Shown here in pieces: positions 2,691-61,602 of a DNA stretch of 64,000 nt. Positions within the stretch are counted from its first letter, which is position 1. The number at the start of each line of letters is the position of its first letter. The translations under genes and the position numbers were made by a program. Location of the stretch: assembly GCA_945612235.1 (NCBI GenBank), contig CALZAE010000001.1:1-64000 (forward strand). Direction: 5' to 3'. Origin of the DNA: an uncultured Gammaproteobacteria bacterium. Lineage in GTDB: Bacteria; Pseudomonadota; Gammaproteobacteria; Pseudomonadales; Pseudomonadaceae. Under the pieces are notes generated by a model, which saw nothing but the letters and a program-made list of their open reading frames with translations, had not been told where the DNA came from and did not search any database.

Positions 2691-3422
2691 TTAATAGAAC
2701 GCCATGCCACCGTTGACGGCAATGTTTTGACCGGTAATAAAGCTGGCGTCGTCGCTGCCTAAAAATGCAACAACACGCGCAATTTCTAACGTTGTACCCA
2801 GACGACCCAAGGGAATCCCAGCAATCATTGAATCCATCCACTCTTGTGGAATGCCCGCCATCATTGGCGTGTCGGTTGCGCCAGGTACTAGGCTATTCAC
2901 ACGAATACCACTGGGCGCTAATTCACGCGCCGTGCTGCGGGTTAAGCCCATGATGCCGGCTTTGGACGCTACATAGTGGCTTGGGCCTTCACCGGTTTGG
3001 CCGGCTGTACTGGAGAAGTTCACAATGGCGCCGCTACCGGCTTTCACCATTAACTTAGCGGCTTCACGGCTGCACAAAAATGCGCCGGTTAAGTTGACAT
3101 TAATCACGCGCTGCCATGTTTCTAAGGTCGTTTCCAAGAACCCATCAACCGAACCAATACCCGCGTTATTCACCAGCAGGTCTAAGCGGCCTTGCTCTTG
3201 TTCAATACGCGCCATCAGATCAACTACAGCCGTTTCGTTGGTAATATCACACACCACGGCATGTGCCTTACCATCAAGGCCTTGCACTGTTTCTTCCAGC
3301 GCTTGGGCATTGACATCCACTGCGTACACAATGGCGCCTTGCTCAACAAAATACTGCACCATAGTGCGACCCATGCCTTGTCCAGCGCCGGTGACAACGC
3401 TGATTTTATTATTCAGTTTCAT
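2691..3422 (-). CDS. SDR family oxidoreductase
   Basis: TGAGQGMG, NNAG, YVASK motifs; start trimmed to MKLNNKISVVTG at 3422. Confidence 0.9.
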   Translation of the reverse strand: MKLNNKISVVTGAGQGMGRTMVQYFVEQGAIVYAVDVNAQALEETVQGLDGKAHAVVCDITNETAVVDLMARIEQEQGRLDLLVNNAGIGSVDGFLETTLETWQRVINVNLTGAFLCSREAAKLMVKAGSGAIVNFSSTAGQTGEGPSHYVASKAGIMGLTRSTARELAPSGIRVNSLVPGATDTPMMAGIPQEWMDSMIAGIPLGRLGTTLEIARVVAFLGSDDASFITGQNIAVNGGMAFY

Positions 3423-3481
3423 GGTTGTTCCTGTCTTGTTCTTAGTGTTATTCATCATCGGGTTACATGCCCACACAAGCA

Positions 3482-3497
3482 TCGTCTATTAAGACTA
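3482..3497 (-). promoter_or_regulatory. Cluster motif site (TCGTC TATTAA GACTA)
   Basis: 16-bp near-palindrome centred ~67 bp upstream of the SDR start at 3422; overlaps the stop codon of the upstream gene. Confidence 0.7.
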
Positions 3498-4979
3498 ATC
3501 TCTGGCAATGTTCGCCGCGACGCTCAGCCCTGCTTGGCGGCCAAAGAATGTTGAATCGCCTAATGACATGCCTGAACTGTATCCCTCACCCCAACGTGGC
3601 AAGCCACACGCAGTCCGCCCTGCCGCATACAGACCTTGAATGGCCTGCCCATCGGCGTTTAACACCTCTCCAGTAGGCAAAGTCGCTAAGCCACCCAAGG
3701 TAAAGGCATGCCCATCAAAATCACCACTGCAGTAACTCAGTGCTGCAAAAGGCGGTGACAGCAAGGGGCGTAACCACTCATCACTTTTATGCAAATACGG
3801 ATCTTGACCTTCAGCCGCATGGCGGTTGAATTCATTGACGGTGGCAACCAGTGAGCCAGGCTCTAATTGCAACTCTTCTTCGATTTCTTCCCAAGTCTCG
3901 CCCACTGCAGCGATGGTGATATTGGGCTGAATAACGGGACGTGCAAAAATATCGTTATCCACCAGCAGCCAAGCGCGGCCATTGGGCTGACGCAACACAT
4001 AGTGCGCCACACGACCGTGGTAGCTGTCTTCGTTAATAAAACGCTGTCCGCGCTCATTGACAAAAATACCTTTCACCAAGGAAGCCGGCGGAAAGAAAGG
4101 CAAGGTGGCAAAAAACTCATGCATATTCAGCGTCGTTGCTCCCACACTGATACCCATGCGAATGCCTGAACCGTCATCATTGCCGCCGGTGACTAATTGC
4201 TCACACTTTAAAGCTTCAGGGGCGTAGCGCTTGACCATGTCGCGGTTACCAATAAAACCACCGGCACATAAAATCACCCCTTGACGGGCTTGTACGTAAA
4301 CCGGCTGACCTGCAATGCGCACTACCACACCTTGCACAGCGCCGTCATGATCAGTAATCAAGCATAAAGCACGGGCATCGTAGTGCGCTGTCGCACCCAC
4401 TTGCAGCGCTTGGTCACACAATTTCTCCATAAACAATTTACCGCCGCCCCAGCCGGTAAACTCAACTGTATGACCGCGTGGTGCAGGCTTGGCTTGCGCA
4501 GAAAACGGCCACGCCTTTTCATTACCTGACCAGATTAAGGTGTCATCTGTGGTTGGCTCAATCCATTTACCTGGTAAATAAGTACCTTTAAACGGCACAC
4601 CCTGAGCACCCAACCAATCAAAGTGCGCGCTGGCGTTATTGGCGTATAAGGTGACGCGATCTTGGTCGGCTGCGGGGCCACCTGACATCATTAAATAACG
4701 TTGTAAATCTTCAGTGCTGTCTTCAAAGCCATGCTTGCGCTGGATTGTTGTACCACCGCTACCACCGACATAAACTTCACCACCCGACCAACTGGCACTG
4801 CCACCGGGCGCACTGGCCACTTCAAAAATATCGACACTGGAACCGGCATTACGCGCTTCAATCGCAGCGCAACTGCCCGCCGCACCAAAACCAATAATGG
4901 CCACATCAGTCACAATGTCCCACTGGGGAACATCAGCTACGGATACAGGATGTCCTGAGGTTAATACTTTGCTCATCAT
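3495..4979 (-). CDS. FAD-dependent 3-ketosteroid dehydrogenase / fumarate reductase-like flavoprotein
   Basis: 494 aa; DVAIIGFGAAGSCAAIEARNAG Rossmann and C-terminal GLYAAGRTACGLPRWGEGYSSGMSLGDSTFFGRQAG. Confidence 0.85.
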   Translation of the reverse strand: MMSKVLTSGHPVSVADVPQWDIVTDVAIIGFGAAGSCAAIEARNAGSSVDIFEVASAPGGSASWSGGEVYVGGSGGTTIQRKHGFEDSTEDLQRYLMMSGGPAADQDRVTLYANNASAHFDWLGAQGVPFKGTYLPGKWIEPTTDDTLIWSGNEKAWPFSAQAKPAPRGHTVEFTGWGGGKLFMEKLCDQALQVGATAHYDARALCLITDHDGAVQGVVVRIAGQPVYVQARQGVILCAGGFIGNRDMVKRYAPEALKCEQLVTGGNDDGSGIRMGISVGATTLNMHEFFATLPFFPPASLVKGIFVNERGQRFINEDSYHGRVAHYVLRQPNGRAWLLVDNDIFARPVIQPNITIAAVGETWEEIEEELQLEPGSLVATVNEFNRHAAEGQDPYLHKSDEWLRPLLSPPFAALSYCSGDFDGHAFTLGGLATLPTGEVLNADGQAIQGLYAAGRTACGLPRWGEGYSSGMSLGDSTFFGRQAGLSVAANIARD

Positions 4980-4999
4980 ATGCGCCTATAATTAATGAA

Positions 5000-5028
5000 C
5001 TACCCGCCACTTTAGAAGTGGGGGTTTC
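5000..5028 (-). repeat. IS605-type right-end hairpin
   Basis: Minus strand GAAACCCCCACTTCTAAAGTGGCGGGTAGTTCAT immediately 3' of the TnpB stop. Confidence 0.55.
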
Positions 5029-5310
5029 CTAGGTAATACACAGACTTGATGGGGTGCGCTGCACCCCATCAGAGGTTATGCAAATTGACTGGGCTAACTC
5101 CCTCGTACCGAGGGTTTTTGTACTTGATAGCAAGTAGCGCAATCCTTCCTTGAGGATGTTGATACTGGCGTTATAGTCACGATCTAGAACAGCGTTACAG
5201 TTTGGGCATTGCCACTGCCGCATGGCAAGAGTGAGTTCACCCTTACCAAGAACATGATCGCAGCCTGAGCAGGTCTTAGAGGATGGAAACCATCGGTCTA
5301 TTTTAAAATA
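5029..5310 (-). mobile_element. TnpB (IS200/IS605 OrfB) C-terminal remnant
   Basis: Reverse-strand translation FKIDRWFPSSKTCSGCDHVLGKGELTLAMRQWQCPNCNAVLDRDYNASINIL: zinc-finger and RDxNAxxN signature; N-terminal RuvC part absent. 5' junction is approximate. Confidence 0.85.
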
Positions 5311-5325
5311 AACATATTGCCAAGT

Positions 5326-5362
5326 AAAAAAGCCGACCTCTGCAATAGGGGTCGGCTTTTAT
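5326..5362 (-). terminator. Rho-independent terminator
   Basis: AAAAAGCCGACC ... GGTCGGCTTTTA inverted repeat directly after the ACAD gene. Confidence 0.85.
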
Positions 5363-5387
5363 TTAACGCTTCAACATGACTGCCCCA

Positions 5388-10342: not shown

Positions 10343-11131
10343 TTATTCAGCTTTATTTGCTGTAGAAGAACTCAAGAACGCTGGCTTTTCGCCACCGCCA
10401 TGCAGTAAAAGATTGGTACCACTCCAGTAGCTTGCATACGGCGAAGCGGCAAATAAGCATGCCCCTGCCACATCGTTGGGTTCACCCATACGCCCCGCAG
10501 GAATCGTTTTACCGACCGCCTGAATACCAGCTTCATCGCCGTAATGCAGGTGGGATTGCTCAGTTTTAATCAGTCCAGGACTGACCGATACCACACGCAC
10601 TTTAGGTGCCCACTCAACCGCCAACGAGCTGACCAGTGATAAAACGCCCGCCTTAGCTGCGCCATAAGCAGCCGTACCTGGCGAAGGACGTGAAGCGCTG
10701 ACGCTGCCAATAAAGATTAAGACGCCGCCTTCATCTTGTTGCTGCATCAGGTTATTCGCCAATTGGGCCACATTCAGTGGAACTAACAAATTGAGTCGAA
10801 TAATGCCTTCGCTAAAACGTGGTGACACGGTTGCCGCATCCACAGCTGGACTGCCGCCCGCATTATTAACCACCACATCTAAACGGCCATAACGCTCAGC
10901 GATATAAGCAAACAAGGCTGATAACGCATCAAAATCTCGTAAATCTACAGCCTGGAAATCAGCTGTGCGATCCTGCGCTGTAGGTAACTGCTCAGGTGTC
11001 TGACGACCGCACACGATGACTTGTGCACCAGCCTGTAAAAAACTCTGCGCAATCGTTGCACCAATACCTTTGGTACCACCGGTCACTAGGACAACTTTTC
11101 CGGTGTAATCTAAACTCTCTTTAACCTGCAT
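10343..11131 (-). CDS. SDR family oxidoreductase
   Basis: TGGTKGIG, NNAGG, YGAAK motifs. Confidence 0.9.
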   Translation of the reverse strand: MQVKESLDYTGKVVLVTGGTKGIGATIAQSFLQAGAQVIVCGRQTPEQLPTAQDRTADFQAVDLRDFDALSALFAYIAERYGRLDVVVNNAGGSPAVDAATVSPRFSEGIIRLNLLVPLNVAQLANNLMQQQDEGGVLIFIGSVSASRPSPGTAAYGAAKAGVLSLVSSLAVEWAPKVRVVSVSPGLIKTEQSHLHYGDEAGIQAVGKTIPAGRMGEPNDVAGACLFAASPYASYWSGTNLLLHGGGEKPAFLSSSTANKAE

Positions 11132-11183
11132 CTAGGCTTCCTCATAGCATCGGTCTGTCATGACTTTATTGCCTTACCTATAA

Positions 11184-11213
11184 AGGTTCATCGTCTATAT
11201 AGACGATGAACCT
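11184..11213. promoter_or_regulatory. Fully symmetric 30-bp copy of the cluster motif in a divergent promoter
   Basis: AGGTTCATCGTCTATATAGACGATGAACCT equals its own reverse complement; between minus-strand SDR and plus-strand enoyl-CoA hydratase. Confidence 0.88.
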
Positions 11214-11275
11214 CAAGGGGTACAAAACCAGAATGCAGACAGCAATAATTGCTTATTTCTGCTGAGATCCCACAC

Positions 11276-12061
11276 ATGACTGACATTGATGAAGCCCCCG
11301 TTTTACTTGACTATCCAGAGGCTGGCGTGGCTAGACTCACTCTCAACCGCCCGCGCGTCAACAATGCCTTAAGCCTAAAGCTGCAAGCTCTTTTATCTGA
11401 GTATTTTGTCGCCTTAGCCGATAATCCTGACATTCGTTGTATTTTATTAACCGGCGGCGACACCGTCTTTGCTGCGGGCGGTGATATATCAAGCATGGCC
11501 GATACTGGTCCGATTGATATTTACCAGCGCCACACCGAGCGCGTTTGGGGTCCAATTCAACACTGCCCTAAACCTGTGATTGCAGCTATTTGTGGCTACG
11601 CTTATGGCGGTGGTTGCGAGCTGGCGATGCATGCCGACATCTTAATTGCCGGTGAAAGCGCACAGTTTTGCCAACCTGAAATTCGTATTGGCATCATGCC
11701 CGGCATTGGTGGCACACAACGTTTAGTGCGTGCGATCGGTAAGGCGAAAGCCATGCAAATGGCGCTCACCGGCAAACCTATTAGCGCCCACGATGCGTGG
11801 GTCGGCGGTTTAGTGAGCGAGATCGTGCCCGACGACCAAGTGCAAAGCCACGCACTGAGCCAAGCCAAATTGATTGCTAAAATGCCACCCTTAGCAGCTG
11901 AGCAAATCAAAGAAGTTATTTTGCTGGGTATGGATGCGTCACTGGAAGCAGGTCTGGCACTGGAACGTAAAGCCAACGCCCTGCTCTTCGCCTCGCGCGA
12001 CCAAAAAGAAGGGATGAATGCATTTATTGAAAAACGCAAACCCACCTTTACCGGCGAATGA
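11276..12061 (+). CDS. Enoyl-CoA hydratase/isomerase
   Basis: Crotonase motifs AAGGDISSMAD and AYGGGCELAMHAD; ORF can extend to a TTG at 11249. Confidence 0.88.
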   Translation: MTDIDEAPVLLDYPEAGVARLTLNRPRVNNALSLKLQALLSEYFVALADNPDIRCILLTGGDTVFAAGGDISSMADTGPIDIYQRHTERVWGPIQHCPKPVIAAICGYAYGGGCELAMHADILIAGESAQFCQPEIRIGIMPGIGGTQRLVRAIGKAKAMQMALTGKPISAHDAWVGGLVSEIVPDDQVQSHALSQAKLIAKMPPLAAEQIKEVILLGMDASLEAGLALERKANALLFASRDQKEGMNAFIEKRKPTFTGE

Positions 12062-12128: not shown

Positions 12129-13730
12129 TTAAGAGACATGACGGCGCAACTCAAGCTTATCCACTTTATTTGACGCATTTTTTGGCAAGTCATCATAAAA
12201 CACCACGCGACGCGGTACTTTATAATTAGCCATTTGCGTGCGACTCCAGTCAATCAACTGTTTCTCAGTCAACTCCACACCAGCTTTTAACACCACACAG
12301 GCACAACCTACCTCCCCCATGCGCTCATCAGGTATACCGATAACCGCAACTTGAGCAATGCCTGGATGCTCAAACAATCCAGCTTCAATTTCTGCGGGAT
12401 AGCAATTAAAGCCACCCACAATAAACATATCCTTTAAACGGTCCGTGATGGTCAGGTTGCCTTGTGCATCCACATGACCGACATCACCTGTGCGCAACCA
12501 ACCATCCGCTGTAATCGCCTCTGCAGTGGCTTGTGGGTCATTAAAATAGCCTTGCATCACATGAAAGCCACGCAAACAAATCTCACCCGACTCGCCTGTC
12601 GCCACAGGCTGGCCTTGAGTATCAAAAATTCCCAATTCAGTACCCGGAATAGGACTGCCGCTGGTGCTGGCAATGGTTTCAGCCGGCGCCGTGGGATCAC
12701 AGATCGTCGCCAAACCGCCACACTCAGTTAAACCATAAGCTGTAGTGACCACTGAAAAGCCCAGCTCATTGCGCAAGCGCTCAATCAGCACAGGAGGAAT
12801 CGCCGACGCACCGGTCACAGCAATGCGCAAACTGCTCAAATCCGCCTCAGCTAAACGCGGATGCGCCAACATCGACAAATACAAGGTCGGCGGCCCAGGC
12901 AATACGGTAATGCGCTCTTCTTCCACGCGACGGAAGATATCTTGCGCATCAAACACCGCCTGAGGAATGATGGTTGCACCCGCAAGCAAACAGGTTAACC
13001 AACCGGCTTTATAACCAAAGCTATGGAAAAACGGATTGACCACCAAATAACGATCGCCAGGCACCAAACCAATAATGCGCACATACTCACGAAAGGCTTG
13101 CAGCGTTTGCGTGTGATTATTCATCACGCCTTTTGGCTTACCCGTGGTACCTGAAGTAAAGAGCAAGTCAGATAGATCTTCAGCACGAATCGACTGCGCA
13201 CGCTCACGCGCATCATCCAAAGGCACCGCTGCACCCGTTTTAATAAAATCAACCAGCGCAATCTGATCCTCACCTTGCGCCTCGCCCAGCACCACAACCT
13301 GCTCTAAGGTTGCAGGGCGGTGTGGCGCCAGCATGGCGGGGTAATTCACATCTAAAAAATCACCCACAACAAATGCAATACGCGAACCACTGCGCTCTAG
13401 AATATCAGCGGCTTCATTGCCTTTCATACGGGTATTAATCGGTACCAACAGCCCGCCAGCACAATGCACAGCTAAAGCCACTAAGACCCAGTCAGTTGAG
13501 TTGGGCGACCAGACACTGACTCGGTCACCGGTCTGGATGCCACTGGCCATTAAGGCCCGCGTGATGGCCAAGACGCGATCGGGCAGCTGTGCGTAACTGA
13601 TTGATTCGCCTGGCGCTTCCAAAGCAATCCGCTCTGCGAACTGAGTTGCACCGGCAAAGACTAATTCTGGAATAGTGCATGCAATTTTGCTATCGACATT
13701 CATCTCATTGATCCTACTCATTGGCGTCAC
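12129..13730 (-). CDS. fadD3: HIP-CoA ligase-like acyl-CoA synthetase (FadD3-like)
   Basis: 533 aa; LLFTSGTTGKPKGVMNNH, NPFFHSFGYKAGWL, VLPGPPTLYLSMLAHP closely resemble remembered FadD3 sequence. Confidence 0.8.
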   Translation of the reverse strand: MTPMSRINEMNVDSKIACTIPELVFAGATQFAERIALEAPGESISYAQLPDRVLAITRALMASGIQTGDRVSVWSPNSTDWVLVALAVHCAGGLLVPINTRMKGNEAADILERSGSRIAFVVGDFLDVNYPAMLAPHRPATLEQVVVLGEAQGEDQIALVDFIKTGAAVPLDDARERAQSIRAEDLSDLLFTSGTTGKPKGVMNNHTQTLQAFREYVRIIGLVPGDRYLVVNPFFHSFGYKAGWLTCLLAGATIIPQAVFDAQDIFRRVEEERITVLPGPPTLYLSMLAHPRLAEADLSSLRIAVTGASAIPPVLIERLRNELGFSVVTTAYGLTECGGLATICDPTAPAETIASTSGSPIPGTELGIFDTQGQPVATGESGEICLRGFHVMQGYFNDPQATAEAITADGWLRTGDVGHVDAQGNLTITDRLKDMFIVGGFNCYPAEIEAGLFEHPGIAQVAVIGIPDERMGEVGCACVVLKAGVELTEKQLIDWSRTQMANYKVPRRVVFYDDLPKNASNKVDKLELRRHVS

Positions 13731-13776
13731 AGCCTTTATTATTGTTCGAGATTAGCGAAGGCGATGCATGCACTCA

Positions 13777-13792
13777 TCGTCAAGGTAGACTA
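13777..13792 (-). promoter_or_regulatory. Cluster motif site (TCGTC AAGGTA GACTA)
   Basis: Centred ~54 bp upstream of the annotated fadD3-like start. Confidence 0.7.
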
Positions 13793-13809
13793 GATATTGA
13801 ATCCCCAGA

Positions 13810-15054
13810 TTAAGAATCGCGCTTAAGTGGTAGCAGCAACTCACCAGGCACCAGTGATTTTGTCGGTTGATTGGGGTCAACCGACGATCCACTGAGCGCA
13901 ACCACACTATTGAGCATCACGCGGACCAACTCAGCTTGGCGGCGCACACCGGTTTTAGAAAAAATAGCACGCAAATGGGCGCGCGCGGTATTGCGCATAA
14001 TACCCAACTTTTCTGCGGTATCTTCCAAAGACAAACCATTGGCCAATTCCAGCGCCAAGGCGGTTTCTGCCGGCGTAAAGTCAAACAACTCTTTCGCTAC
14101 CGAACTGCTAACACTCGACTTATTCACCGCGTCGCGTACATACAACAATAAAGCGCTGCGATCGCCATCATCCAGCCAGCTGGTATCGGGGACAGTTTCA
14201 AACACAATACCTAAGTTCACTTCACCTGAAGGACGTGTCACCGATAAAGGCCCGCTGCTAATCGGTTCACGACGCTCACGCGCATCAAACGCATCTTTGA
14301 TACGTTTTTGCAATTCCTTGTTATCACTCGGATAGCTGGCCTCAAGGCGATCACCAACCAACTTCAGTCCGTCAGATCTCTCCAGCAAGGTCTGCGCATA
14401 ATCATTGAGCTTTTGCACCACACCTTTATCGTTCAAAAGAATGGTGGCCACCGATAAGCGATTAATCGCATCAGCATATAAATTGCCCATCGACTCACTG
14501 CGACCCAACATACTGCGCACATAAAATGCACTGCGTATATGCGGTAACAGCATCTGGCATAACGCCCTATCCTGCTCATCAAACGCCGGCTCTGATTCAG
14601 CACGGGTAATGCGCAAGCGAAACACACCGTCATGCTCGGTGGAAATATCAGCGCCCATCACATGAAACACATTTTGATACTTACATGACGTTTGGTAATA
14701 GTCCGTTTTGACCCACTCTTCATCGGTCATCACATCACGCTGAGTAAATACGGTATCGATGGATTGCCCAGAAAAGGGTGTCAGACTGCGGTAATAACTG
14801 CTGTAAGCCAATTGCCCGTGTACGGCTAAGTCGCCTGAAACAAGCATTAAACCGACATCTTCAACACCTGGAATACGTAAAATAAGCGTGACAAAGTTGG
14901 CTTTAAAATGCTGACGCATACGATCCAATGCAACGGTAATAGTTGCGTCATCATGACTGCCGTCATGAATGGATAAAACCAATTGATCGTATTCTGCAAG
15001 GGAGATATTTAGACTACTGACTGCAGCCTCGGGAGTAGAATGATTTGGCTTCAC
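13810..15054 (-). CDS. LuxR-family transcriptional regulator (TeiR/TesR-like candidate)
   Basis: 414 aa; C-terminal HTH FTPAETALALELANGLSLEDTAEKLGIMRNTARAHLRAIFSKTGVRRQAELVRVM. Confidence 0.85.
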   Translation of the reverse strand: MKPNHSTPEAAVSSLNISLAEYDQLVLSIHDGSHDDATITVALDRMRQHFKANFVTLILRIPGVEDVGLMLVSGDLAVHGQLAYSSYYRSLTPFSGQSIDTVFTQRDVMTDEEWVKTDYYQTSCKYQNVFHVMGADISTEHDGVFRLRITRAESEPAFDEQDRALCQMLLPHIRSAFYVRSMLGRSESMGNLYADAINRLSVATILLNDKGVVQKLNDYAQTLLERSDGLKLVGDRLEASYPSDNKELQKRIKDAFDARERREPISSGPLSVTRPSGEVNLGIVFETVPDTSWLDDGDRSALLLYVRDAVNKSSVSSSVAKELFDFTPAETALALELANGLSLEDTAEKLGIMRNTARAHLRAIFSKTGVRRQAELVRVMLNSVVALSGSSVDPNQPTKSLVPGELLLPLKRDS

Positions 15055-15131: not shown

Positions 15132-15169
15132 CGTCTTCTCAGCACACTGTTATACGTGCTGAGAAGACG
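15132..15169. repeat. 14-bp perfect inverted repeat with 10-bp loop
   Basis: CGTCTTCTCAGCAC-ACTGTTATAC-GTGCTGAGAAGACG between the LuxR gene start and the RND gene stop. Confidence 0.85.
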
Positions 15170-31665: not shown

Positions 31666-32541
31666 TTAAAATGATGGCACTGGAAGGGCTGCAAGGTGTT
31701 CCTTGCCGCCGTTGGCTTCGCGATACTGCTCTTCGCCGCCTTTAACATACTTATCAAAGTACGCATCCCAGCCGTTATCATCTTTAGCGCTGTCGCTGTA
31801 CTCTTGCAGATGCTTCATGTCCCAGCCGTAATCCGGGCTGCACATGGTTGGGTGCGCACCCAAAGGTGCTTCGATGACACCCGTAACCAAGGAGCGCTCA
31901 AAGGTATTGAAACGCGCTTGCTCTTTAGTTAAAGCAAATTTCTCTTCGACAACTTCAGCCGAAACAAAAGCTTGTTTGGCTGCGCGTACCACGTGGTGAT
32001 CAAAGTACGCATCGTTACCCGTCACTAAGGTGTTACCTAAACGGTCAGCACGGTTCACATGCACAAAGGCCACATCTAAGTACAGCGCTGGCATTGCCAA
32101 CACTTCTTCACCATCAGCATAGGGTGAACGGATGGTTTTCAGCTCTGGATTGTAGGTTAAAACGTCTGTCGCTAAACCAGCACGCGCGGGTAAAAACGGC
32201 ATACGCATACCGGCAGCTTTAAGACCTAACTGGAACAGACCTTCGTCCAGCTCCATCACGTCCAACTTGCCCGCTTGACGCAATTTGCGGAAATACGGCT
32301 CAAGTGGAATCGCATCCAGTGTGGCAAAACCAAAAATCAGTTTTTTAACTTTACCCGCAGCACATAACATCCCAACTTCAGGACCACCATAAGCCACAAC
32401 AGTTAAGTCTTTAACGTCACTGCGCAAAATCTCGCGCACGATCGCCATTGGCTTACGACGTGGACCCCAGCCACCAAACCCGATTGTCATACCATCTCTG
32501 AGCTGAGCAACCGCTTGTGCAGATGTCATTTGCTTATTCAT
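31666..32541 (-). CDS. ipdA: IpdA-like CoA-transferase/ring hydrolase alpha subunit
   Basis: 291 aa; MTIGFGGWGPRRKPMAIVREILRSDVKDLTVVAYGGPEVGMLCAAGKVKKLIFGF. Confidence 0.88.
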   Translation of the reverse strand: MNKQMTSAQAVAQLRDGMTIGFGGWGPRRKPMAIVREILRSDVKDLTVVAYGGPEVGMLCAAGKVKKLIFGFATLDAIPLEPYFRKLRQAGKLDVMELDEGLFQLGLKAAGMRMPFLPARAGLATDVLTYNPELKTIRSPYADGEEVLAMPALYLDVAFVHVNRADRLGNTLVTGNDAYFDHHVVRAAKQAFVSAEVVEEKFALTKEQARFNTFERSLVTGVIEAPLGAHPTMCSPDYGWDMKHLQEYSDSAKDDNGWDAYFDKYVKGGEEQYREANGGKEHLAALPVPSF

Positions 32542-33440
32542 TGTGTTTCTCCTTGCTGGCCTACACTGAAGTCGTGACCCCAGACGCTAACGCGATTAAA
32601 TTCGAAAACAGAGTGTTTTTCCCAGTCAACTAGGAGACCGCCCCAACCAAACTCCAGATCAAATCCGGATGGCGTTTTCATATAAAAAGAAGTCATTTTG
32701 TCGTTCAGATGCTGACCTAAAGTGGCCGACAACGGCACACCGTGGGCTTCACGGCGGTCATGCGCACGACCTACTTCGGTCATGCTGTCCACTTCAACCA
32801 TCATGTGCACGCATTTGCTGGGCACATCGTATTCGGCAATCGCCAAACTGTGATGGCGCGCATTGCCGCAATGCATAAAGTGGATGCGTGTTACATCAGC
32901 ATCAGGAGCTGGACGGAAATTAAAGATATCGGATTTACGAAAACCCAACACATCACGATAAAACGCAGCACATTCATCAAAGTTAGGCGCCGGCAGCACG
33001 GTGTGACCTAAACCCATGCCATCGGTCACAAAGCGCGGTACGCCTTGCGGAGAGACAAATGGCTGACAACCTGAGATATGACCCCAGCTCAACTCGTGAC
33101 GGTTACCGGCTGGATCAGCCAGGCAGGCAATGGCTTGCACACCACGCGACACACACAGCGCGCGATCACCTAACTCGTAGCTGACGCCCTGCTCTTCTAT
33201 ATGCTTGAGCATGGCGGTAAAGTCTTCCTCACTGCCCAGCTCCCAACCGGAAGCCAGGTACACATCAGTGGCACCCTCTTGTACTAAAATACGAAAAGGA
33301 CGCTCGTCCATTTTAACGCGCAGCGATCCGTCGGCTTCGGTCGTCGTCATCATGCCCAACACTTCTTCAGCGTAGTGGCGCCAAGACTCAAGACTCTGAA
33401 CTTGGGTGACGATATAACTCAATGATTGAACAGTGCTCAT
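32538..33440 (-). CDS. hsaC: HsaC/TesB-like extradiol dioxygenase
   Basis: VOC-fold extradiol dioxygenase; GLGHTVLPAPNFDECAAFYRDVLGF and SFYMKTPSGFDLEFGWGG; start trimmed to MSTVQSLSYI at 33440. Confidence 0.88.
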   Translation of the reverse strand: MSTVQSLSYIVTQVQSLESWRHYAEEVLGMMTTTEADGSLRVKMDERPFRILVQEGATDVYLASGWELGSEEDFTAMLKHIEEQGVSYELGDRALCVSRGVQAIACLADPAGNRHELSWGHISGCQPFVSPQGVPRFVTDGMGLGHTVLPAPNFDECAAFYRDVLGFRKSDIFNFRPAPDADVTRIHFMHCGNARHHSLAIAEYDVPSKCVHMMVEVDSMTEVGRAHDRREAHGVPLSATLGQHLNDKMTSFYMKTPSGFDLEFGWGGLLVDWEKHSVFEFNRVSVWGHDFSVGQQGETQ

Positions 33441-33510
33441 TATAATTATTCTCCTGATACACCTAATTTTAGGACTGTTTCGATTATTGCGTGAACGCCC
33501 CAATTGCTCA

Positions 33511-33526
33511 TCGTCCATTGAGACTA
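33511..33526 (-). promoter_or_regulatory. Cluster motif site (TCGTC CATTGA GACTA)
   Basis: Centred ~78 bp upstream of hsaC start. Confidence 0.75.
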
Positions 33527-33561
33527 ATGTTTTTTTGACGAGCAACCACGCGGGTTTAAGG

Positions 33562-34585: not shown

Positions 34586-35806
34586 TTATGCTCCCTCAAG
34601 AATCAGTGCACCCTGCTCACTCATGACGCCGCCAGTACCGGAGACGAACACTCGATCACAGTTTTTCAATTGACGCTCACCGGCCTTACCACGAATCTGA
34701 TCAAAAGCCTCAATCACCTGCGAGAAGCCACCGGCCGATCCCGCCTGACCAAAGCTGAGCTGACCACCATGGGTATTGACAGGGAAGTTACCTTTCCAAG
34801 TCAGATCATTCTCAAGAATAAAGCGCATACCTTCGCCCTTCGGACAAAAGCCTGCATCTTCTAAACTGAGCAACACGGTAATGGTGTAGCAGTCATAAAT
34901 CTGCGCGGCATTCATATCCGACGGCTTCAAGCCCGACATTTCAAAGGCGCGACGCGCTGCTGGACCGACGGGTGTTTCTGTCATGTCTGGCGAATAGGTG
35001 GGTGACTTATAGCCTAAACGCTCACCGAAACCTGTGATATGTGCACCACGGTTACGTGCACGTGCGGCGACTTCTTTGGAAGCTACAATCACTGCAGCAC
35101 CACCGGCGACGGGCATGACAATTTCCAACACGCGCAATGGATCAGCGACCATGCGGCTATTGAGCACATCTTCAATGCTCAAAGGTTTGCCATGGAAAAT
35201 CGCATTGGGATTGGCTAACGCATTGGTGCGCTGATCCACGGCAATCTTCGCCATAGCGCGCTCATCGTAGCCATATTGCGCAGCATAACGCTTAGCAATC
35301 ATGGCATAACCGGTATTCTGACCTAAGTGGCCATAGGGTAAATCAAACTCAGCTTCTGGCGCACCAAATGCGGTACTGTGACCACCAAAACGCATGGCAC
35401 GTGCCATGGCTGCAGGGTCTTCATCACGCCCAAAAGGCGCCATACGCATCGGCAACACACAGAGCACCGCTTGACACAAACCCATCTCAATTGCCGCAGC
35501 GGCACGCCACACCATACCCACAGGGGTGGTGCCGCCCAAATCCACAACTTCAGCAAAGTTGACAGCAATACCGAGATACTCAGCCGCCATCGCCGGAACA
35601 AAGACCGAGGCCTCATGAAAATGTGGACCGTTAATCACCAAGCCATCCAAATCACTGGCTTGCAGACCCGCATCATCCAAGGCTTGTCGAGCTAGATCCG
35701 CCACCTGTTCCAAGTGAAACATTTGCGGGGCTTCAGAGTATTTTTGTGGTTTGTACTGCGCAGCACCAACAATTGCTGCTTCTCCTTTCCATCCCATGTA
35801 GAGCAC
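34586..35806 (-). CDS. Thiolase-like lipid-transfer protein (Ltp/SCP-x family)
   Basis: 406 aa; EAAIVGAAQYKPQKYSEAPQMFHLEQVADLARQALDDAGL, NFPVNTHGGQLSFGQAGSAGG; alternative start MGWKG at 35797. Confidence 0.85.
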   Translation of the reverse strand: MLYMGWKGEAAIVGAAQYKPQKYSEAPQMFHLEQVADLARQALDDAGLQASDLDGLVINGPHFHEASVFVPAMAAEYLGIAVNFAEVVDLGGTTPVGMVWRAAAAIEMGLCQAVLCVLPMRMAPFGRDEDPAAMARAMRFGGHSTAFGAPEAEFDLPYGHLGQNTGYAMIAKRYAAQYGYDERAMAKIAVDQRTNALANPNAIFHGKPLSIEDVLNSRMVADPLRVLEIVMPVAGGAAVIVASKEVAARARNRGAHITGFGERLGYKSPTYSPDMTETPVGPAARRAFEMSGLKPSDMNAAQIYDCYTITVLLSLEDAGFCPKGEGMRFILENDLTWKGNFPVNTHGGQLSFGQAGSAGGFSQVIEAFDQIRGKAGERQLKNCDRVFVSGTGGVMSEQGALILEGA

Positions 35807-35871
35807 CTTTTTTATAGATATTATCTGCTATCTTTCTGCATCTTTTTTACAAGACTGCAGACCATCACTCA

Positions 35872-35887
35872 TCGTCCAAAAGGCCTA
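35872..35887 (-). promoter_or_regulatory. Cluster motif site (TCGTC CAAAAG GCCTA)
   Basis: Centred ~74 bp upstream of the Ltp-like gene start. Confidence 0.65.
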
Positions 35888-36005
35888 GAGTCAAACACTT
35901 ATTTAACACAAAATCATTCTCACTGGACAACCTACACTGCAACAGCAGCTTACTTGATTCCATACAGCCCAGTTCTGCAACTTGAGTGATCTAAACCCGG
36001 CAAAC

Positions 36006-39220: not shown

Positions 39221-40312
39221 TTAAATATGAGTGACCTGCACCTCTACAGAACACTCATTACTAGCCAGCACACGCTGGTAGCGGTAACACTCCCCAATCA
39301 GTTGTCGTGTGATGCGTCCCTCTTCCAGTAGTAAATTAAGATGTGCCAAGACCTCACCATTAGCGAGCAGCACATCAAACGATGAGCGCACACGTGGAAA
39401 CATAAACCGCATCAGCTCATCCGCAGTTCGTGCCTCACACATATGCTCCAGTAACCGATCCAGATGACCCTGATGGTGCTCGGTTAATTGTTCTAAGCGA
39501 TGGTGCAAGCCATAAAAAGGCCGCTCATGCGCCGGCAGAACTAACACGTCATCTGAGACACAACGCAATCCTTGCAAACTGTCCAACCATTCTTTTAAAG
39601 GATTAGCGTCCGGCTCCGTCACCGTCACACAGACACTTGAAGTGATACGCGGCAAAACCTGATCACCTGAAATAAATAAGCCCGCTTGGCGGTTATACAA
39701 ACATGCATGCTCAGGCGAGTGCCCTGAGGCAATCACCACTTCCCAATCGTGATGACCGATGCGCAACACCTGATTGGCTACTAAACGGTTGTAGCTTTCA
39801 GGTGCATCCTGCACATAACTGCTGTCGCCCATCACGCTGAGCAAGCCCGATATATCTTCATCTGGCATACCGCTGTGGCGATAAAACTGGCTCATTTGCC
39901 AGCCCATACCACCCTCAGTCGATGGGCTAACAAACAACGCCTGATACTCACCGCGCGTCATATATACAGGGCACTGAAAACGATCCGCCAACCAGCCTAA
40001 TGAGCCGCAATGGTCATAATGAAAGTGCGTGGCGATCACGGCTTTGACTGGCGCATCCTGCATCACTTCAGTAAAGACACGCTCCCATACATCACGGGTT
40101 TGTTGCGTGCCTAAACCGGTATCGACAATAACCCAGCCGTCACCATGCTCTAAAAGATACAAGTTGATGTGATCTAGACCAAAAGGTAGCGGCATACGCA
40201 GCCACACCACGCCTTCAGCGACCACCTGCCAATCTCCTCGCTCAGGTGGCGTTGTCCAAGGGAAGCTCAGCTCAAAATGCTTCTGTTCGGTCGGGGCTGG
40301 GTAATGTCTCAT
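39221..40312 (-). CDS. Metallo-beta-lactamase fold hydrolase
   Basis: 363 aa; THFHYDHCGSLGWLADRF and ASGHSPEHACLYNRQAGLFISGDQVLP. Confidence 0.9.
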   Translation of the reverse strand: MRHYPAPTEQKHFELSFPWTTPPERGDWQVVAEGVVWLRMPLPFGLDHINLYLLEHGDGWVIVDTGLGTQQTRDVWERVFTEVMQDAPVKAVIATHFHYDHCGSLGWLADRFQCPVYMTRGEYQALFVSPSTEGGMGWQMSQFYRHSGMPDEDISGLLSVMGDSSYVQDAPESYNRLVANQVLRIGHHDWEVVIASGHSPEHACLYNRQAGLFISGDQVLPRITSSVCVTVTEPDANPLKEWLDSLQGLRCVSDDVLVLPAHERPFYGLHHRLEQLTEHHQGHLDRLLEHMCEARTADELMRFMFPRVRSSFDVLLANGEVLAHLNLLLEEGRITRQLIGECYRYQRVLASNECSVEVQVTHI

Positions 40313-42189
40313 GCACCACTCCCGACAAAAGGCGGCAACGCATTACGAGCCAGCACTTCATCACTGTAAGGGCTGTAGGTGTTGTGAATGTCATCTTTGA
40401 TATACAAATCATCAGCAAAGCTGTCAGGGTTATAGCCCTCTTTTTGTAAATCAATTTTGCGATGCTTAAAGGTAGTGGTCATATCTGCCTGATACCCCAC
40501 ACGCAAAAACACCGGGCGCGCATAGTGCGGCAAACGCTCACACACAAACTGGTAAAAGGCTTGGGGATCAAACTCACAATCTGGCTGCATCACCACTTGC
40601 GCCATACCCGCACGGCCTTCATGCTCAGGCACAGTTACACCATAGATATTGATGAACTCCATGCCGGCAAAATCACCTAATTCTGAAGCCACCTCTTGAG
40701 TGGAGACGTTTTCACTTTTCCAGCGGAAGGTATCGCCCATACGGTCAACAAAATAACAGTAACCATTGGCGTCGTAGCGCAACAAGTCACCGGAGCTCCA
40801 CCAAGCATCGCCCTTCTGGAACACATCTCTTAAAATTTTAGTTTCTGTGGCCGCAGCAGAGGTATAGCCTTCAAAGCGACCCGCACCGATCTCAGGCGAA
40901 TCGACAATAAAACCTACCGCTTCACCAATCTCTCCTGGCTGGCAATGCACATAGAAACCATTTTCATCACGCACATGCATTTGCGTTTCTGGATCGATGC
41001 GCAATAAGCGTAAGTTGGTTTTTTCCCAGTTCGGAATACGGCCACATGAGCCGATGTAGTTCTCAAGATTAATGGTTGAAGTATTCGCTTCTGTGGAACC
41101 CCAGCCTTCGTATACATCAAGCTGACCAAAACGCTCAACCCAGCGACGCCAACTGTCAGCCGTTAAACCCGCACCCAGCATGCAGCGCAATGAGTTGTTC
41201 TTTTCCTCAGGCGCTTCTGGACGATTTAATAAATAGCGGCAAATCTCGCCCACATATTGGAAAACCGTCACACCATGCGTGCGCACATCGGACCAAAAAC
41301 GGCTGGCACTGAATTTGCGACGAATCACAATCGAAGCGCCCGACGATAATGCAGTGGAGGCCACTGAGGTTGCTGCAGCACCGTGATACAAAGGTAAGCA
41401 GCAATAGAAGACATCATTCGTATCAGTTTCGAGGGTAACTTCCATCACATTACCTGATGTCATCCAACGCATGTGGCTGTAACGTGCGGCTTTAGGTAAG
41501 CCGGTCGTACCTGACGTGAAGATGTAAAGCATGTCATCTTCAGCGCGAATACCTGCACGTAATGCTGCATCAGGTCGAGCCGTTGAAGCACGCTCGACCT
41601 CAACAGAGAAATTATGATCAAAACTAGCAAGCTGCTCAGCATCAGCAACGTTTTCAGCATCGGGGATCAACCACTGCGGCCACTCTTGTGTTTCAGGCGT
41701 TTCCAAAAATGGCGTAATACATTCCTCACCAACCAGCACAATTTTAGTACCCGTGGCTTGCAATACATGCGTCAACGGATTGCCTTGCAAGTGGTAGTTC
41801 ACCAATGCTGATACTGCACCGATCTTAGCGAGCGCGAACCAGCAAAAAAACAACTCTGGACGATTCTCTAAGGCGACCGCGCAGACATCACCAGGCTGAA
41901 CTCCACGCGCAACAAATGTATTAGCGTACTGATTAACGCGCTCATCTACTTCTTTATAGGTGTAGCTGCGATCACCATAAATCAGAAAAGGCCGATCAGA
42001 AAACTTGTCGACTTGGTCTTCAATGCGCTGTCCTAACGTATATAAATCGCTTGGCTTAATCTGCCCAGCAACCTTTGAACGTAAATCATGTTTTGCTTGA
42101 GCACGATCAACGACTGGATGATGTACTGACTGATCACTATTTTTATTTTTATCGCATGAGTCAACGTTGAGCATATGCACTCCGGTCAT
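40309..42189 (-). CDS. FATP/FadD-type long-chain or steroid acyl-CoA synthetase
   Basis: 626 aa; YIFTSGTTGLPKAARYSHMRW, WGSTEANTSTINLENYIGSCGRIP. Confidence 0.85.
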   Translation of the reverse strand: MTGVHMLNVDSCDKNKNSDQSVHHPVVDRAQAKHDLRSKVAGQIKPSDLYTLGQRIEDQVDKFSDRPFLIYGDRSYTYKEVDERVNQYANTFVARGVQPGDVCAVALENRPELFFCWFALAKIGAVSALVNYHLQGNPLTHVLQATGTKIVLVGEECITPFLETPETQEWPQWLIPDAENVADAEQLASFDHNFSVEVERASTARPDAALRAGIRAEDDMLYIFTSGTTGLPKAARYSHMRWMTSGNVMEVTLETDTNDVFYCCLPLYHGAAATSVASTALSSGASIVIRRKFSASRFWSDVRTHGVTVFQYVGEICRYLLNRPEAPEEKNNSLRCMLGAGLTADSWRRWVERFGQLDVYEGWGSTEANTSTINLENYIGSCGRIPNWEKTNLRLLRIDPETQMHVRDENGFYVHCQPGEIGEAVGFIVDSPEIGAGRFEGYTSAAATETKILRDVFQKGDAWWSSGDLLRYDANGYCYFVDRMGDTFRWKSENVSTQEVASELGDFAGMEFINIYGVTVPEHEGRAGMAQVVMQPDCEFDPQAFYQFVCERLPHYARPVFLRVGYQADMTTTFKHRKIDLQKEGYNPDSFADDLYIKDDIHNTYSPYSDEVLARNALPPFVGSGA

Positions 42190-42289
42190 GAGTCAAATTT
42201 ATCTTCGCCAGCCAAACCAATTAAACAATTTTCAGGTCGGCGCTATAGGTAACGTAAAGCCAGATTATGAAAGGCCATAGCACGGAGCA

Positions 42290-42305
42290 TCGTCCGTAAA
42301 GACTA
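42290..42305 (-). promoter_or_regulatory. Cluster motif site (TCGTC CGTAAA GACTA)
   Basis: Centred ~108 bp upstream of the FadD-type gene. Confidence 0.72.
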
Positions 42306-42336
42306 AATCGGTAATACATTAAGATGGCTGACCAAG

Positions 42337-42352
42337 TGGTCTAAATGGACGA
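42337..42352 (+). promoter_or_regulatory. Cluster motif site (TGGTC TAAATG GACGA)
   Basis: Centred ~75 bp upstream of the MFS gene, opposite orientation to its neighbour. Confidence 0.72.
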
Positions 42353-42419
42353 TGTCGTTTAAGCGACCTGACGGCAATGATTAGTCACGCACAACAATAA
42401 TGATAAGAGATGTACATTT

Positions 42420-43769
42420 ATGGCCCACCCCACAGACAAAGTACCTGGCAACGCGCATTACGCATTAGTATTACTGGCAATAATTTATGTATTGAGTTAC
42501 ATCGACCGCCTAGTGATTTCGGTATTGATTGAGCCGATTAAGGCTGAATTTTTAGTCTCCGACACCATGATGGGCTTGCTCACGGGTGTTGCTTTTGCAA
42601 TTTTCTACACGGCCTTTGGTTTACCTTTAGGTCGTCTTTCTGATCGCGTCGGCCGTAAAGTTGTGATTGCTGTCGCCTGTATCGTCTGGAGCATCTTCAC
42701 CATGTTCAGCGGTATTGCGGCCAGCTTTTTTATGCTGGTTTTACTGCGTATTGGTGTCGCTGTCGGTGAAGCAGGAGCCGGTGCACCCTCGGTGGCGATG
42801 ATTTCCGAGTTATATCCGCCACGTTTACGCGCACGCGCACTGGCTATCTTTGGTCTAGGCCCAGCGCTCGGCGCGGTTTTGGGCATAGGTTTTGGTGGTG
42901 TGTTGGCAGAGATGTACGGCTGGCGCGCCACTTTAATTATTGTCGGCGCACCTGGCGTTCTTGTCGGTCTGATTTTTGCATTTACCGTTAAAAGCCCCAA
43001 GCAAACCATGTCAGCCAGCAAAGGCATACCTGAAGAAGGCATGTTGCGTACGGCTTTTTCTCTATTGAAAATCCCCAGCATGTTAATGATTGTACTGGCC
43101 GGTGGCGCAGCTGCAGTGACCGGTTATGCCATTCAAATGTGGACCCCCAGCTTTATGATCCGCTCACACCAAATCACCATCCAAGATGCAGGGATGTTAA
43201 TGGGTATTGGTGGCGGCGGTATTTCGTTACTTGGTACGCTCGTGTGCGGTTATGTCACCGATAAAATGTCAGCGCGCGATCCAGGCTGGCAGCTGGGCAC
43301 AGCTCTGGCTGGCACCTTGATCAGTATTCCTTTAGCCATGGCATTTTATCTATGGCCGGCTGGCACCGCGTTTTCAATTGGCAGCCTTGCGGTCCCCACA
43401 GGTTTCTTATTCTATATGGGCTTTGCCTTCTTTGGTGTGTGGTGGACGATCCCATCATTTAGCGCACTATCGCGCATATTACCCAGCAACAAACTGGCAC
43501 AAGGTACCGCGCTATTCTTTATGAGCGTAACCCTCTTGGGTGCCGGTCTTGGCCCTGTTGTTGCGGGCTTCATCAGCGACACCCTACACAATATTATTGG
43601 TGGCGTTGAAGCCTTGCGCTACGCCTTAGTAGCGACTACAAGCTTGCTCCTTATACCTTGCTTGTTCTTTTTGAGCGCTATTCCAAAATACCGTAAACAA
43701 CTGCTGGACAATACTCCTGCATCAACCACTACCACTATCGCGCCGGGTGTTAAACCAGCCGTTTCTTAA
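42420..43769 (+). CDS. MFS transporter
   Basis: 449 aa, 12-TM pattern; GLPLGRLSDRVGRKVVI MFS signature. Confidence 0.92.
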   Translation: MAHPTDKVPGNAHYALVLLAIIYVLSYIDRLVISVLIEPIKAEFLVSDTMMGLLTGVAFAIFYTAFGLPLGRLSDRVGRKVVIAVACIVWSIFTMFSGIAASFFMLVLLRIGVAVGEAGAGAPSVAMISELYPPRLRARALAIFGLGPALGAVLGIGFGGVLAEMYGWRATLIIVGAPGVLVGLIFAFTVKSPKQTMSASKGIPEEGMLRTAFSLLKIPSMLMIVLAGGAAAVTGYAIQMWTPSFMIRSHQITIQDAGMLMGIGGGGISLLGTLVCGYVTDKMSARDPGWQLGTALAGTLISIPLAMAFYLWPAGTAFSIGSLAVPTGFLFYMGFAFFGVWWTIPSFSALSRILPSNKLAQGTALFFMSVTLLGAGLGPVVAGFISDTLHNIIGGVEALRYALVATTSLLLIPCLFFLSAIPKYRKQLLDNTPASTTTTIAPGVKPAVS

Positions 43770-46806: not shown

Positions 46807-46842
46807 AAAAAAGGCGGCTTATATATAAGCCGCCTTTTTTTA
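46807..46842. terminator. Bidirectional terminator
   Basis: AAAAAAGGCGGCTTATATATAAGCCGCCTTTTTTT between convergent genes. Confidence 0.88.
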
Positions 46843-56573: not shown

Positions 56574-58286
56574 TTATTTAGCCGCTGCATTCAGCGCTGC
56601 AACGTAACCAAAAGTCATTGCGGGCCCCAATGTTCCACCCGCGCCTGGATAAGTAGTACCCAATACTGAAGCTGAGGTATTACCAATCGCATACAGTCCT
56701 TCAATCACTTGCCCATCAGGCTTAACCACTTGCGCATGCTCATTGGTTAACAAACCACCTTTAGTACCAATATCTCCGCCTTGAATCGGCATCGCGTAAT
56801 AGGGTCCTTTCGCAATTGGCGCCAAGCAAGGATTAGGGGTGATATTGCTGTCACCGTAGTAACGATCAAATACGTTACCACCGCGACCAAAGTCTTCATC
56901 CACACCTGTTTCAGCATAGCGGTTCATCTTTTTCACTGTGTCCTGCAAGCCTGCAGCATCCACACCAATTTTCTGCGCTAGCTCATCCAAGGTATCGGCT
57001 TTAAAGTAGAGTTTATTCAACCATTCTTTACGCAAGCGCATGTCTGGCATGATTTGCCCCGGCATCAACGGACCCATAGCATAATTAAACCGAAATTTCG
57101 CATCAAAAATTGCCCAGCTTGGAAAAGTCTTGCCTTGCGTCACCTGATTGTCAGCATGCATGGCTGTCACAAACTCAAGATAAGGGGATGCCTCATTAAC
57201 AAAACGCTTACCTAAGCTATTCACCACAATTGCACCAGGGAAAGCACGCTCAGCAAAAATACCACGGGCTTTTGTTTCACCTGGCACTAAAAAGGTGGGA
57301 GCCCACCATGCCCAATCCATCAAAGCAGTTGCCGCACCCAACTTTTGACCCGCTTCTAATGCGGCTCCAGTATTAGCGCCTTCAGGTGTTGCACACCATT
57401 CAACCTTATTCGGTTGTGGTAAATACTTCGCACGCAGCTCTGGGTTTTGCTCAAAACCACCCGCACCTAAAATCACACCTTTCTCGGCACGAATGCGTTG
57501 CTGCTGGCCATTACGCTCAACCACCACACCACACACACGACCATTTTCTTCAATTAAATCAACAAAGTTGGTGTTCAACCACAAAGGAATATTCTTATCC
57601 AGCATGGATGCACGTAAGCTCGCAATCAACGCATTTCCTAAAGCGGTACGACGGTCACGTTGTTCTCCGGTTTTTTTACGCCAGCTAAAATCCAGCTTGT
57701 AACGCAACATCATCCACATCACCATCAGCCGCCAGCCGCGACTTTTAGACATCGCAACGTGTGCCTGACGTGCAGTCCATGAAATGCGCCCCATCAACAA
57801 ATTGCCGCGTGACGCTTCACGTAAATTGGATATTTCATCTTTTAGTGAAGATAGATCAAACAACTCAGGATCAAGGGTACGGCCACCGGGTAAAAACCCT
57901 TCTAAATGCGGGTAGTAATCTGGGTACTTCTCAGCAACGGCATAACGCACCCGTGAGTTTTTCTCCAACCACTGAACCATTTCTGGTGCTTTTTCGATGT
58001 ACTTACGCACACGCGTCTCATCAATATCAGCACCGATCGCATTTTTTAAATACGTCCAAGCTTTCTCCGGACTATCCTGCCCCCCCTTCGCCTTAAAGTG
58101 GTGGTTGCATGGAATCCAAATGCCACCACCCGATAATGCTGAAGTTCCGCCGTACTTATCAGTTTTTTCAATCACTAGCACTCGTAAACCTTGTGCTTGT
58201 GCAGTGATTGCAGCAGTTAAAGCACCAGCGCCTGAACCCACGACTACCAGATCGTAATCTGTATTGTAATTATTTTGAACAGTCAT
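56574..58286 (-). CDS. kstD: 3-ketosteroid Delta1-dehydrogenase family flavoprotein
   Basis: 570 aa; DLVVVGSGAGALTAAITAQAQGLRVLVIEKTDKYGGTSALSGGGIWIPCN, C-terminal TYPGAGGTLGPAMTFGYVAAL. Confidence 0.87.
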   Translation of the reverse strand: MTVQNNYNTDYDLVVVGSGAGALTAAITAQAQGLRVLVIEKTDKYGGTSALSGGGIWIPCNHHFKAKGGQDSPEKAWTYLKNAIGADIDETRVRKYIEKAPEMVQWLEKNSRVRYAVAEKYPDYYPHLEGFLPGGRTLDPELFDLSSLKDEISNLREASRGNLLMGRISWTARQAHVAMSKSRGWRLMVMWMMLRYKLDFSWRKKTGEQRDRRTALGNALIASLRASMLDKNIPLWLNTNFVDLIEENGRVCGVVVERNGQQQRIRAEKGVILGAGGFEQNPELRAKYLPQPNKVEWCATPEGANTGAALEAGQKLGAATALMDWAWWAPTFLVPGETKARGIFAERAFPGAIVVNSLGKRFVNEASPYLEFVTAMHADNQVTQGKTFPSWAIFDAKFRFNYAMGPLMPGQIMPDMRLRKEWLNKLYFKADTLDELAQKIGVDAAGLQDTVKKMNRYAETGVDEDFGRGGNVFDRYYGDSNITPNPCLAPIAKGPYYAMPIQGGDIGTKGGLLTNEHAQVVKPDGQVIEGLYAIGNTSASVLGTTYPGAGGTLGPAMTFGYVAALNAAAK

Positions 58287-59552: not shown

Positions 59553-59630
59553 AGTTAATTCTCTCGGTGATTAATACAGATATTGTTTTCCAATGTTTTA
59601 CGATTATCAGCGCAGCCTGCGTGCCTCTCA

Positions 59631-59646
59631 TCGTCAAACTGGACTA
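59631..59646 (-). promoter_or_regulatory. Cluster motif site (TCGTC AAACTG GACTA)
   Basis: Centred ~86 bp upstream of hsaA start. Confidence 0.75.
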
Positions 59647-59902
59647 GGAATTAATGAACACACTCAACAGGCTCTTAGACCTTGGTATTCCTCCTTATAC
59701 AAAACAGCCTGAATTTTTATTTCCTAACCGCAAGAATCGCTGCTAACCCACGTATTACCTTCCCTACAACACCTCCGCCGTTAAAACCATATGGACTGTA
59801 GAAGACTTATACAGATCTTCTACAACTCAATAAATAACACACCCGTTTAAAAACTCAAACTTTATTGCACTCAATCAACAAACAATGACAACACGCCAGA
59901 AT

Positions 59903-61387: not shown

Positions 61388-61456
61388 GGACTCTTCCTTA
61401 TTTTATTTATTTTAAAGCCTTTAAATTGAGCATAAAAGCATGCCCATCAAGCAGCC

Positions 61457-61472
61457 TCGTCTATTCGGACCA
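61457..61472 (-). promoter_or_regulatory. Cluster motif site (TCGTC TATTCG GACCA)
   Basis: Centred ~77 bp upstream of the aldehyde dehydrogenase start. Confidence 0.7.
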
Positions 61473-61521
61473 TAACCTTGAAAACCCTTGATTTTACAGC
61501 ACTTTCACGGCAGTCAAACGG

Positions 61522-61537
61522 TAGTCCATTGAGACGA
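61522..61537 (+). promoter_or_regulatory. Cluster motif site (TAGTC CATTGA GACGA)
   Basis: Centred ~73 bp upstream of hsaB start, oriented toward it. Confidence 0.75.
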
Positions 61538-61602
61538 TGTTTAACCCCTGCACCCACTTGATAATCAAGTCAACATAGCATGACTAAACGAGGTGCTTCA
61601 CT

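Follow-up and report, generated by a model that had tools for sequence, protein, structure and literature searches.

A perfect palindrome between two divergent genes of a steroid catabolic cluster: a likely shared operator for a LuxR-type regulator

Why should one copy of a regulatory motif be perfectly symmetric when other copies are not? This question is raised by positions 11184-11213 of the window, which is the whole stretch of 64,000 nucleotides of gammaproteobacterial DNA analysed in this study. The segment reads AGGTTCATCGTCTATATAGACGATGAACCT and, as the initial annotation had claimed, is identical to its own reverse complement over 30 bp. It lies in the intergenic gap between an SDR oxidoreductase gene on the minus strand (10343-11131), which is transcribed leftward from the gap, and an enoyl-CoA hydratase gene on the plus strand (11276-12061), which has its ATG at 11276 and its longest open reading frame from a TTG at 11249. 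The core, CATCGTC-TATATA-GACGATG, occupies positions 11189-11208, has no strand of its own and is proposed here as an operator common to two divergent promoters. When the window was simulated 40 times with a first-order Markov model, perfect palindromes reached 26 bp at most. The longest in the window itself is a different one, a 34-bp perfect palindrome (AAAAAAGGCGGCTTATATATAAGCCGCCTTTTTT) at 46807-46840, which is located between convergent genes and, with its terminal T run, looks like a two-way intrinsic terminator.

The palindrome belongs to a family of sites. The aligned GACGATG copies give the motif TAGTC-Y-N5-GACGATG, the core of which, GTCYN5GACGATG (GTCYNNNNNGACGATG), has nine matches in the window compared with a mean of 0.03 in shuffles; the palindrome contributes two of the nine, one on each strand. 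The exact pattern TAGTCYN5GACGATG has six matches in the 2.18-Mb assembly (about 83% complete), and all six are inside the steroid cluster of this window. The copies sit upstream of steroid-catabolism genes, in a cluster with KstD-like (56574-58286), HsaA-like (58362-59552) and HsaC-like (32538-33545) products. On the minus strand, copies are found at 3480-3498, upstream of an SDR gene annotated at 2691-3482; at 13775-13793, immediately after a LuxR-type regulator gene and upstream of a fadD3-type acyl-CoA ligase gene (12129-13730); at 33509-33527, upstream of the extradiol dioxygenase (HsaC/TesB-like) gene; at 35870-35888, a TAGGCC variant upstream of a thiolase-like gene (34586-35806); and at 59629-59647, upstream of the HsaA-like monooxygenase gene and its operon. 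Longest-ORF calling places gene starts at or upstream of the operator in two of these cases (3480-3482 and 33509-33545), and the start codon of ORF 2691-3482 is the ATG within GACGATG; the likelier starts are about 3422 and about 33440. The gap at 4980-5387 carries, on the minus strand, what by eye seems to be a degenerate IS200/IS605-type TnpB-like remnant. Elsewhere in the assembly, a one-mismatch copy (TAGGCTTAGTGGACGATG; G000:C59:7680-7697, minus strand) neighbours genes for a Tat-signal protein, a cytochrome c-like protein and an aldehyde dehydrogenase, and it is possibly an extra member of the regulon.

Two further divergent gaps of the window differ in design from the SDR/hydratase gap. 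One contains a left-facing copy at 42288-42306 (minus strand), which faces an acyl-CoA synthetase gene (40309-42189), and a right-facing copy at 42336-42354 (plus strand), which faces an MFS transporter gene (42420-43769). The other contains a copy at 61521-61539 (plus strand) upstream of a flavin reductase gene (61603-62607) and, upstream of an aldehyde dehydrogenase gene (59957-61387), a weaker copy with GACGAGG at 61455-61473 (minus strand). The paired, outward-facing asymmetric sites that the initial annotation had described in other divergent regions are thus present in both gaps, with the reservation that the 61455 copy is the weaker. Its statement that the palindrome is the sole fully symmetric copy holds within the window; outside the window, symmetric copies exist.

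The position of the promoters relative to the motif indicates which half sets direction. Among 141 non-redundant TAGTCY-N5-GACGATG sites from relatives, 96% have a -10-like nAnnnT element at +27/28 on the side of GACGATG, whereas only 10% have one in that register on the TAGTC side, against a background of about 6%. Therefore, GACGATG marks the promoter side, which bears out its earlier designation as the polarity half. In a set of 160 non-redundant sites, the conserved bases that emerge outside the searched pattern are T and A upstream of GTC and, downstream, A and T at distances of 28 and 32 nt from the G of GACGATG. The sites were gathered with GACGATG fixed, and the tolerated variation in that half is consequently under-sampled.

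In the palindrome, -10-like hexamers are found at exactly +27 on both sides, which is a two-sided promoter layout. The predicted -10 of the hydratase promoter, CAGAAT, is at 11229-11234 on the plus strand, 27 nt after the G of GACGATG, and the register of the 141 sites would place the transcription start at about 11241. The predicted -10 of the SDR promoter, TAAAGT, is at 11163-11168 on the minus strand in the same register, with a predicted start at about 11156. Since each flank has its -10 in register, the SDR and enoyl-CoA hydratase promoters are probably served by a single dyad. The dyad centre is about -42.5 relative to the predicted starts, which fits class II geometry (a fixed site expected near -41.5). 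A consensus scan of the gap found no sigma-70-type promoter, and a recognisable -35 is absent; assuming a 17-nt spacer, the TTG position of a -35 hexamer would be taken by the ATG of GACGATG. A transcribed 30-bp perfect palindrome would also fold strongly, and the segment could be read as an RNA hairpin, a terminator or an attenuator, instead of a DNA operator. We consider this extremely improbable; the predicted starts on both sides fall outside the palindrome, and its core is the regulon-wide motif, which is asymmetric elsewhere. Moreover, no T run follows the palindrome, and a terminator search of the gap was negative.

The shared-operator reading, in which one dyad serves two divergent genes, had been put forward in the initial annotation, and it is supported by what is found in relatives. 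Each of the 32 orthologous SDR/hydratase gaps examined contains one dyad, mostly with -10-like hexamers in both directions; nearly all 32 gaps have such hexamers on each side, the SDR-side form being TAGAGT, TACAGT or TAAAGT. The hydratase-facing half is GACGATG in 32 of 32, although the scan itself sought GACGATG and every gap contained one. The SDR-facing half is GACGATG only in the four genus members that have the gap, all of which keep CATCGTC...GACGATG. Outside the genus it is GACGAAG, GACGAAT, GACGACG, GACGTAG or AACGACG, and the gene pair and both -10 elements are kept despite this degeneracy. Conservation of the palindrome is therefore partial: the symmetric halves are kept within the genus, the SDR-facing half decays beyond it, and the two-way layout persists. 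Even within the genus, variation affects the outer ACCT and the six bases at the centre, and the perfect palindrome measures 30 bp in the window, 26 bp in G006 and 24 bp in G001, while the central bases are asymmetric in G003. The gene order is also the same on a Vibrio alfacsensis plasmid, where a near-palindrome, TTTCATCGTC-CATTTA-GACGACGAAAG, is found.

The imperfect SDR-facing half outside the genus might suggest that the exact symmetry is due to chance, that an ordinary one-sided site is what matters and that the SDR gene is read from elsewhere. However, the symmetric halves are retained by every genus member with the gap, the SDR-side -10-like elements are conserved in nearly all of the 32 genomes, and symmetric cores recur at another divergent pair. 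In light of these observations, chance symmetry appears very unlikely.

The recurrence of symmetric cores deserves a closer description. The pattern CATCGTCY-N4-RGACGATG is found in 39 of 399 genomes of the family Pseudomonadaceae, compared with one for a reversed control. Four of the 30 family loci inspected are the SDR/hydratase gap. Roughly half of all the symmetric-core loci are upstream of kshA, which encodes the Rieske 3-ketosteroid 9-alpha-hydroxylase (closest PDB chain 4qdc, E 1.8e-115), and most of these have a divergent SDR or oxidoreductase gene opposite. The kshA gaps have conserved -10-like elements in both directions in nearly the same register. Most of the remaining loci look like coding sequence or chance. 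Beyond the family, the rest of the order adds only four genomes with the symmetric core; at least some of these matches are within coding sequence, and none showed the two-promoter layout. Symmetry is thus seen at least twice, at the SDR/hydratase and kshA gaps, with two genes per dyad each time; the kshA cases, in other Pseudomonadaceae, are an independent recurrence.

A different explanation of the symmetry had been offered, namely that the palindrome is the highest-affinity or best model operator. The analysis does not support this claim. On a matrix built from the sites of relatives, most canonical asymmetric sites outscore the palindrome, which reaches 22.2 bits compared with 25.1 bits for the site at 33509 and 25.4 bits for the best canonical window site at 42288; nor is the perfect palindrome itself conserved. 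Two promoters that share a site account for the symmetry better than affinity does.

Which protein might bind the motif? The regulator gene identified within the window, at 13810-15054 on the minus strand, is located inside the steroid catabolic cluster, with ChsH2-like and CoA-transferase genes also around it, in a position resembling that of TeiR/TesR. Its product, a LuxR-type regulator with GAF-like, PAS-like and C-terminal HTH regions, is our candidate. Its match to Pfam GerE (PF00196; residues 327-379) scores 22.8 bits against a cut-off of 23.5 (E 7.1e-05). The AlphaFold model is modest (pLDDT 68.6, pTM 0.45); it contains the GAF-like, PAS-like and HTH regions, with a helical C-terminal region and low confidence after residue 370. 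The PDB matches of the model are PAS/GAF sensors at low TM-score, and a PDB sequence search with the regulator profile returned no match. Between this gene and an MMPL-type transporter gene there is an inverted repeat at 15132-15169 (14-bp arms, 10-nt loop), possibly a terminator or a second operator.

The regulator and the sites occur together across genomes. Genome-wide counts with the looser GTCYN5GACGATG were hard to read in large genomes, and many regulator-less genomes scored high, with coding matches suspected; the tighter exact pattern TAGTCYN5GACGATG was used in its place. Among 98 relatives, at least five exact sites are found in 13 of the 16 genomes with a strong homologue of the regulator (E<=1e-50) and in 1 of the 82 without (Fisher p=1.4e-12, phylogeny ignored). 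The lone genome in the second group, G001, is a fragmented assembly. Three genomes (G069, G086 and G090) have a homologue and no exact sites, and some homologue loci, such as those of the P. fragi group, have no site within 10 kb. Around the 77 named homologue loci, 147 sites were counted, compared with 0-10 for scrambled patterns, and at 37 of the 77 a site is within 400 nt of the matched regulator gene. The site-bearing loci include those of Pseudomonas, Halopseudomonas, Marinobacterium, Stutzerimonas, Thauera, Zoogloea, Aromatoleum and Azoarcus. Furthermore, the regulators of site-bearing genomes have in common a recognition-helix region, RNT(A/V)(R/K)AHLR, with few variants. Together, these comparisons make the product of 13810-15054 the likely binder of the motif.

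The cluster contains a second LuxR-type gene at contig positions 72669-73910, just beyond the window, with a recognition helix that differs from that of the first and with no site assigned to it. The motif could be bound by its product instead. G007, a genus member that is 99% complete, has four motif sites without a close homologue of the first regulator and retains only the second protein. In this genome the cluster is represented by its right half alone, which includes the four sites (C3:374058-399085); a close homologue is lacking because the left half, which carries the regulator, is missing. Against the second protein as the binder, its helix, SAARNYSK, bears little resemblance to the conserved RNTARAHLR, and each of the site-rich genomes G097 and G028 has just one LuxR-type match, of the first type. 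We rejected the second gene as the binder on these two grounds and regard it as quite unlikely to fill that role.

Taken together, we consider it likely that the palindrome is a single operator common to two divergent, activator-dependent sigma-70-type promoters and that it is bound by the LuxR-type steroid regulator 13810-15054 in the class II manner. A dimer of this regulator would bind the dyad GTC-N6-GAC, extended to TAGTC...GACGATG. From a position centred at about -42.5 relative to both predicted starts, beside an otherwise poor -35, it would recruit RNA polymerase, with a steroid or a steroid intermediate as the presumed inducer. At ordinary sites, the GATG extension is present on one half only, the one facing the promoter, and its ATG would fall at the -35 TTG position, which may be why the GATG half marks polarity. 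A site for two genes would carry the extension on both halves and would therefore be palindromic.

The same geometry might serve a repressor. Repressors commonly occupy the -35 region, which the dyad overlaps, sites near -42 could serve one, and TetR operators are usually palindromic. Moreover, the steroid regulons of Actinobacteria use the TetR repressors KstR and KstR2 (PMC6678751). A protein of this kind would block RNA polymerase at the -35 until released by a steroid intermediate. However, the scan of window proteins, which did not extend to every small ORF, revealed no TetR-type gene. Activation fits both the rigid 27/28-nt spacing to the -10 and the absence of a recognisable -35. In addition, it is a LuxR-type gene that accompanies the sites, and TesR/TeiR of Comamonas is reported to be positive. 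Repression is therefore unlikely, and we infer activation.

According to the literature, TesR/TeiR of Comamonas testosteroni is a LuxR-type positive regulator needed for the induction of steroid degradation (PMC6678751). In strain TA441, the regulator is at the end of the gene run that begins with tesB (PMC13101464). TeiR-like genes have been noted in Pseudomonas stutzeri Chol1, in which deletion of one delays growth on cholate, and a 2021 review described the regulatory mechanisms of bile-acid-degrading Proteobacteria as largely unknown (PMC8399759). Our candidate resembles TeiR/TesR in type and position, as a LuxR-type protein whose gene closes a comparable run within a steroid cluster; TeiR has also been described as a membrane-located kinase-like sensor. 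Searches of the open-licence literature found no published operator for TeiR/TesR and nothing relevant to the motif TAGTCY-N5-GACGATG. The sites form a clear and apparently undescribed family in the steroid degraders of several proteobacterial groups. We lean towards the view that the motif is the operator, not described before, through which TeiR/TesR-type steroid regulators act in beta- and gammaproteobacteria: an asymmetric LuxR-type site, the promoter-facing half of which acts as a -35 surrogate that sets direction, and which has been repeatedly symmetrised where divergent genes share a site. An operator, a candidate binder and a promoter register offer a direct route to listing steroid-regulon genes in many genomes and a direct way to test the regulator.

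In class II activation by LuxR-type proteins, the dyad of the lux box is centred near -42.5, beside the -35. The sites described here resemble the lux box in dyad position and in the LuxR-type HTH protein, but the dyad sequence differs, the halves are unequal except where divergent promoters share a site, and the structure predicted for the regulator includes GAF-like and PAS-like domains. The regulon resembles those of KstR and KstR2 in having one operator across the steroid catabolic genes; it differs in that those proteins are TetR-type repressors, whereas the window proteins scanned include none of that type and the site architecture suits activation. Finally, divergent promoters with one symmetric operator are known, in which one dyad serves two mirror-image promoters. 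Unlike those systems, this regulon also has asymmetric, one-way copies, and symmetry therefore tracks promoter number; the symmetric copies are a clean natural test of how the site of a dimeric activator encodes direction.
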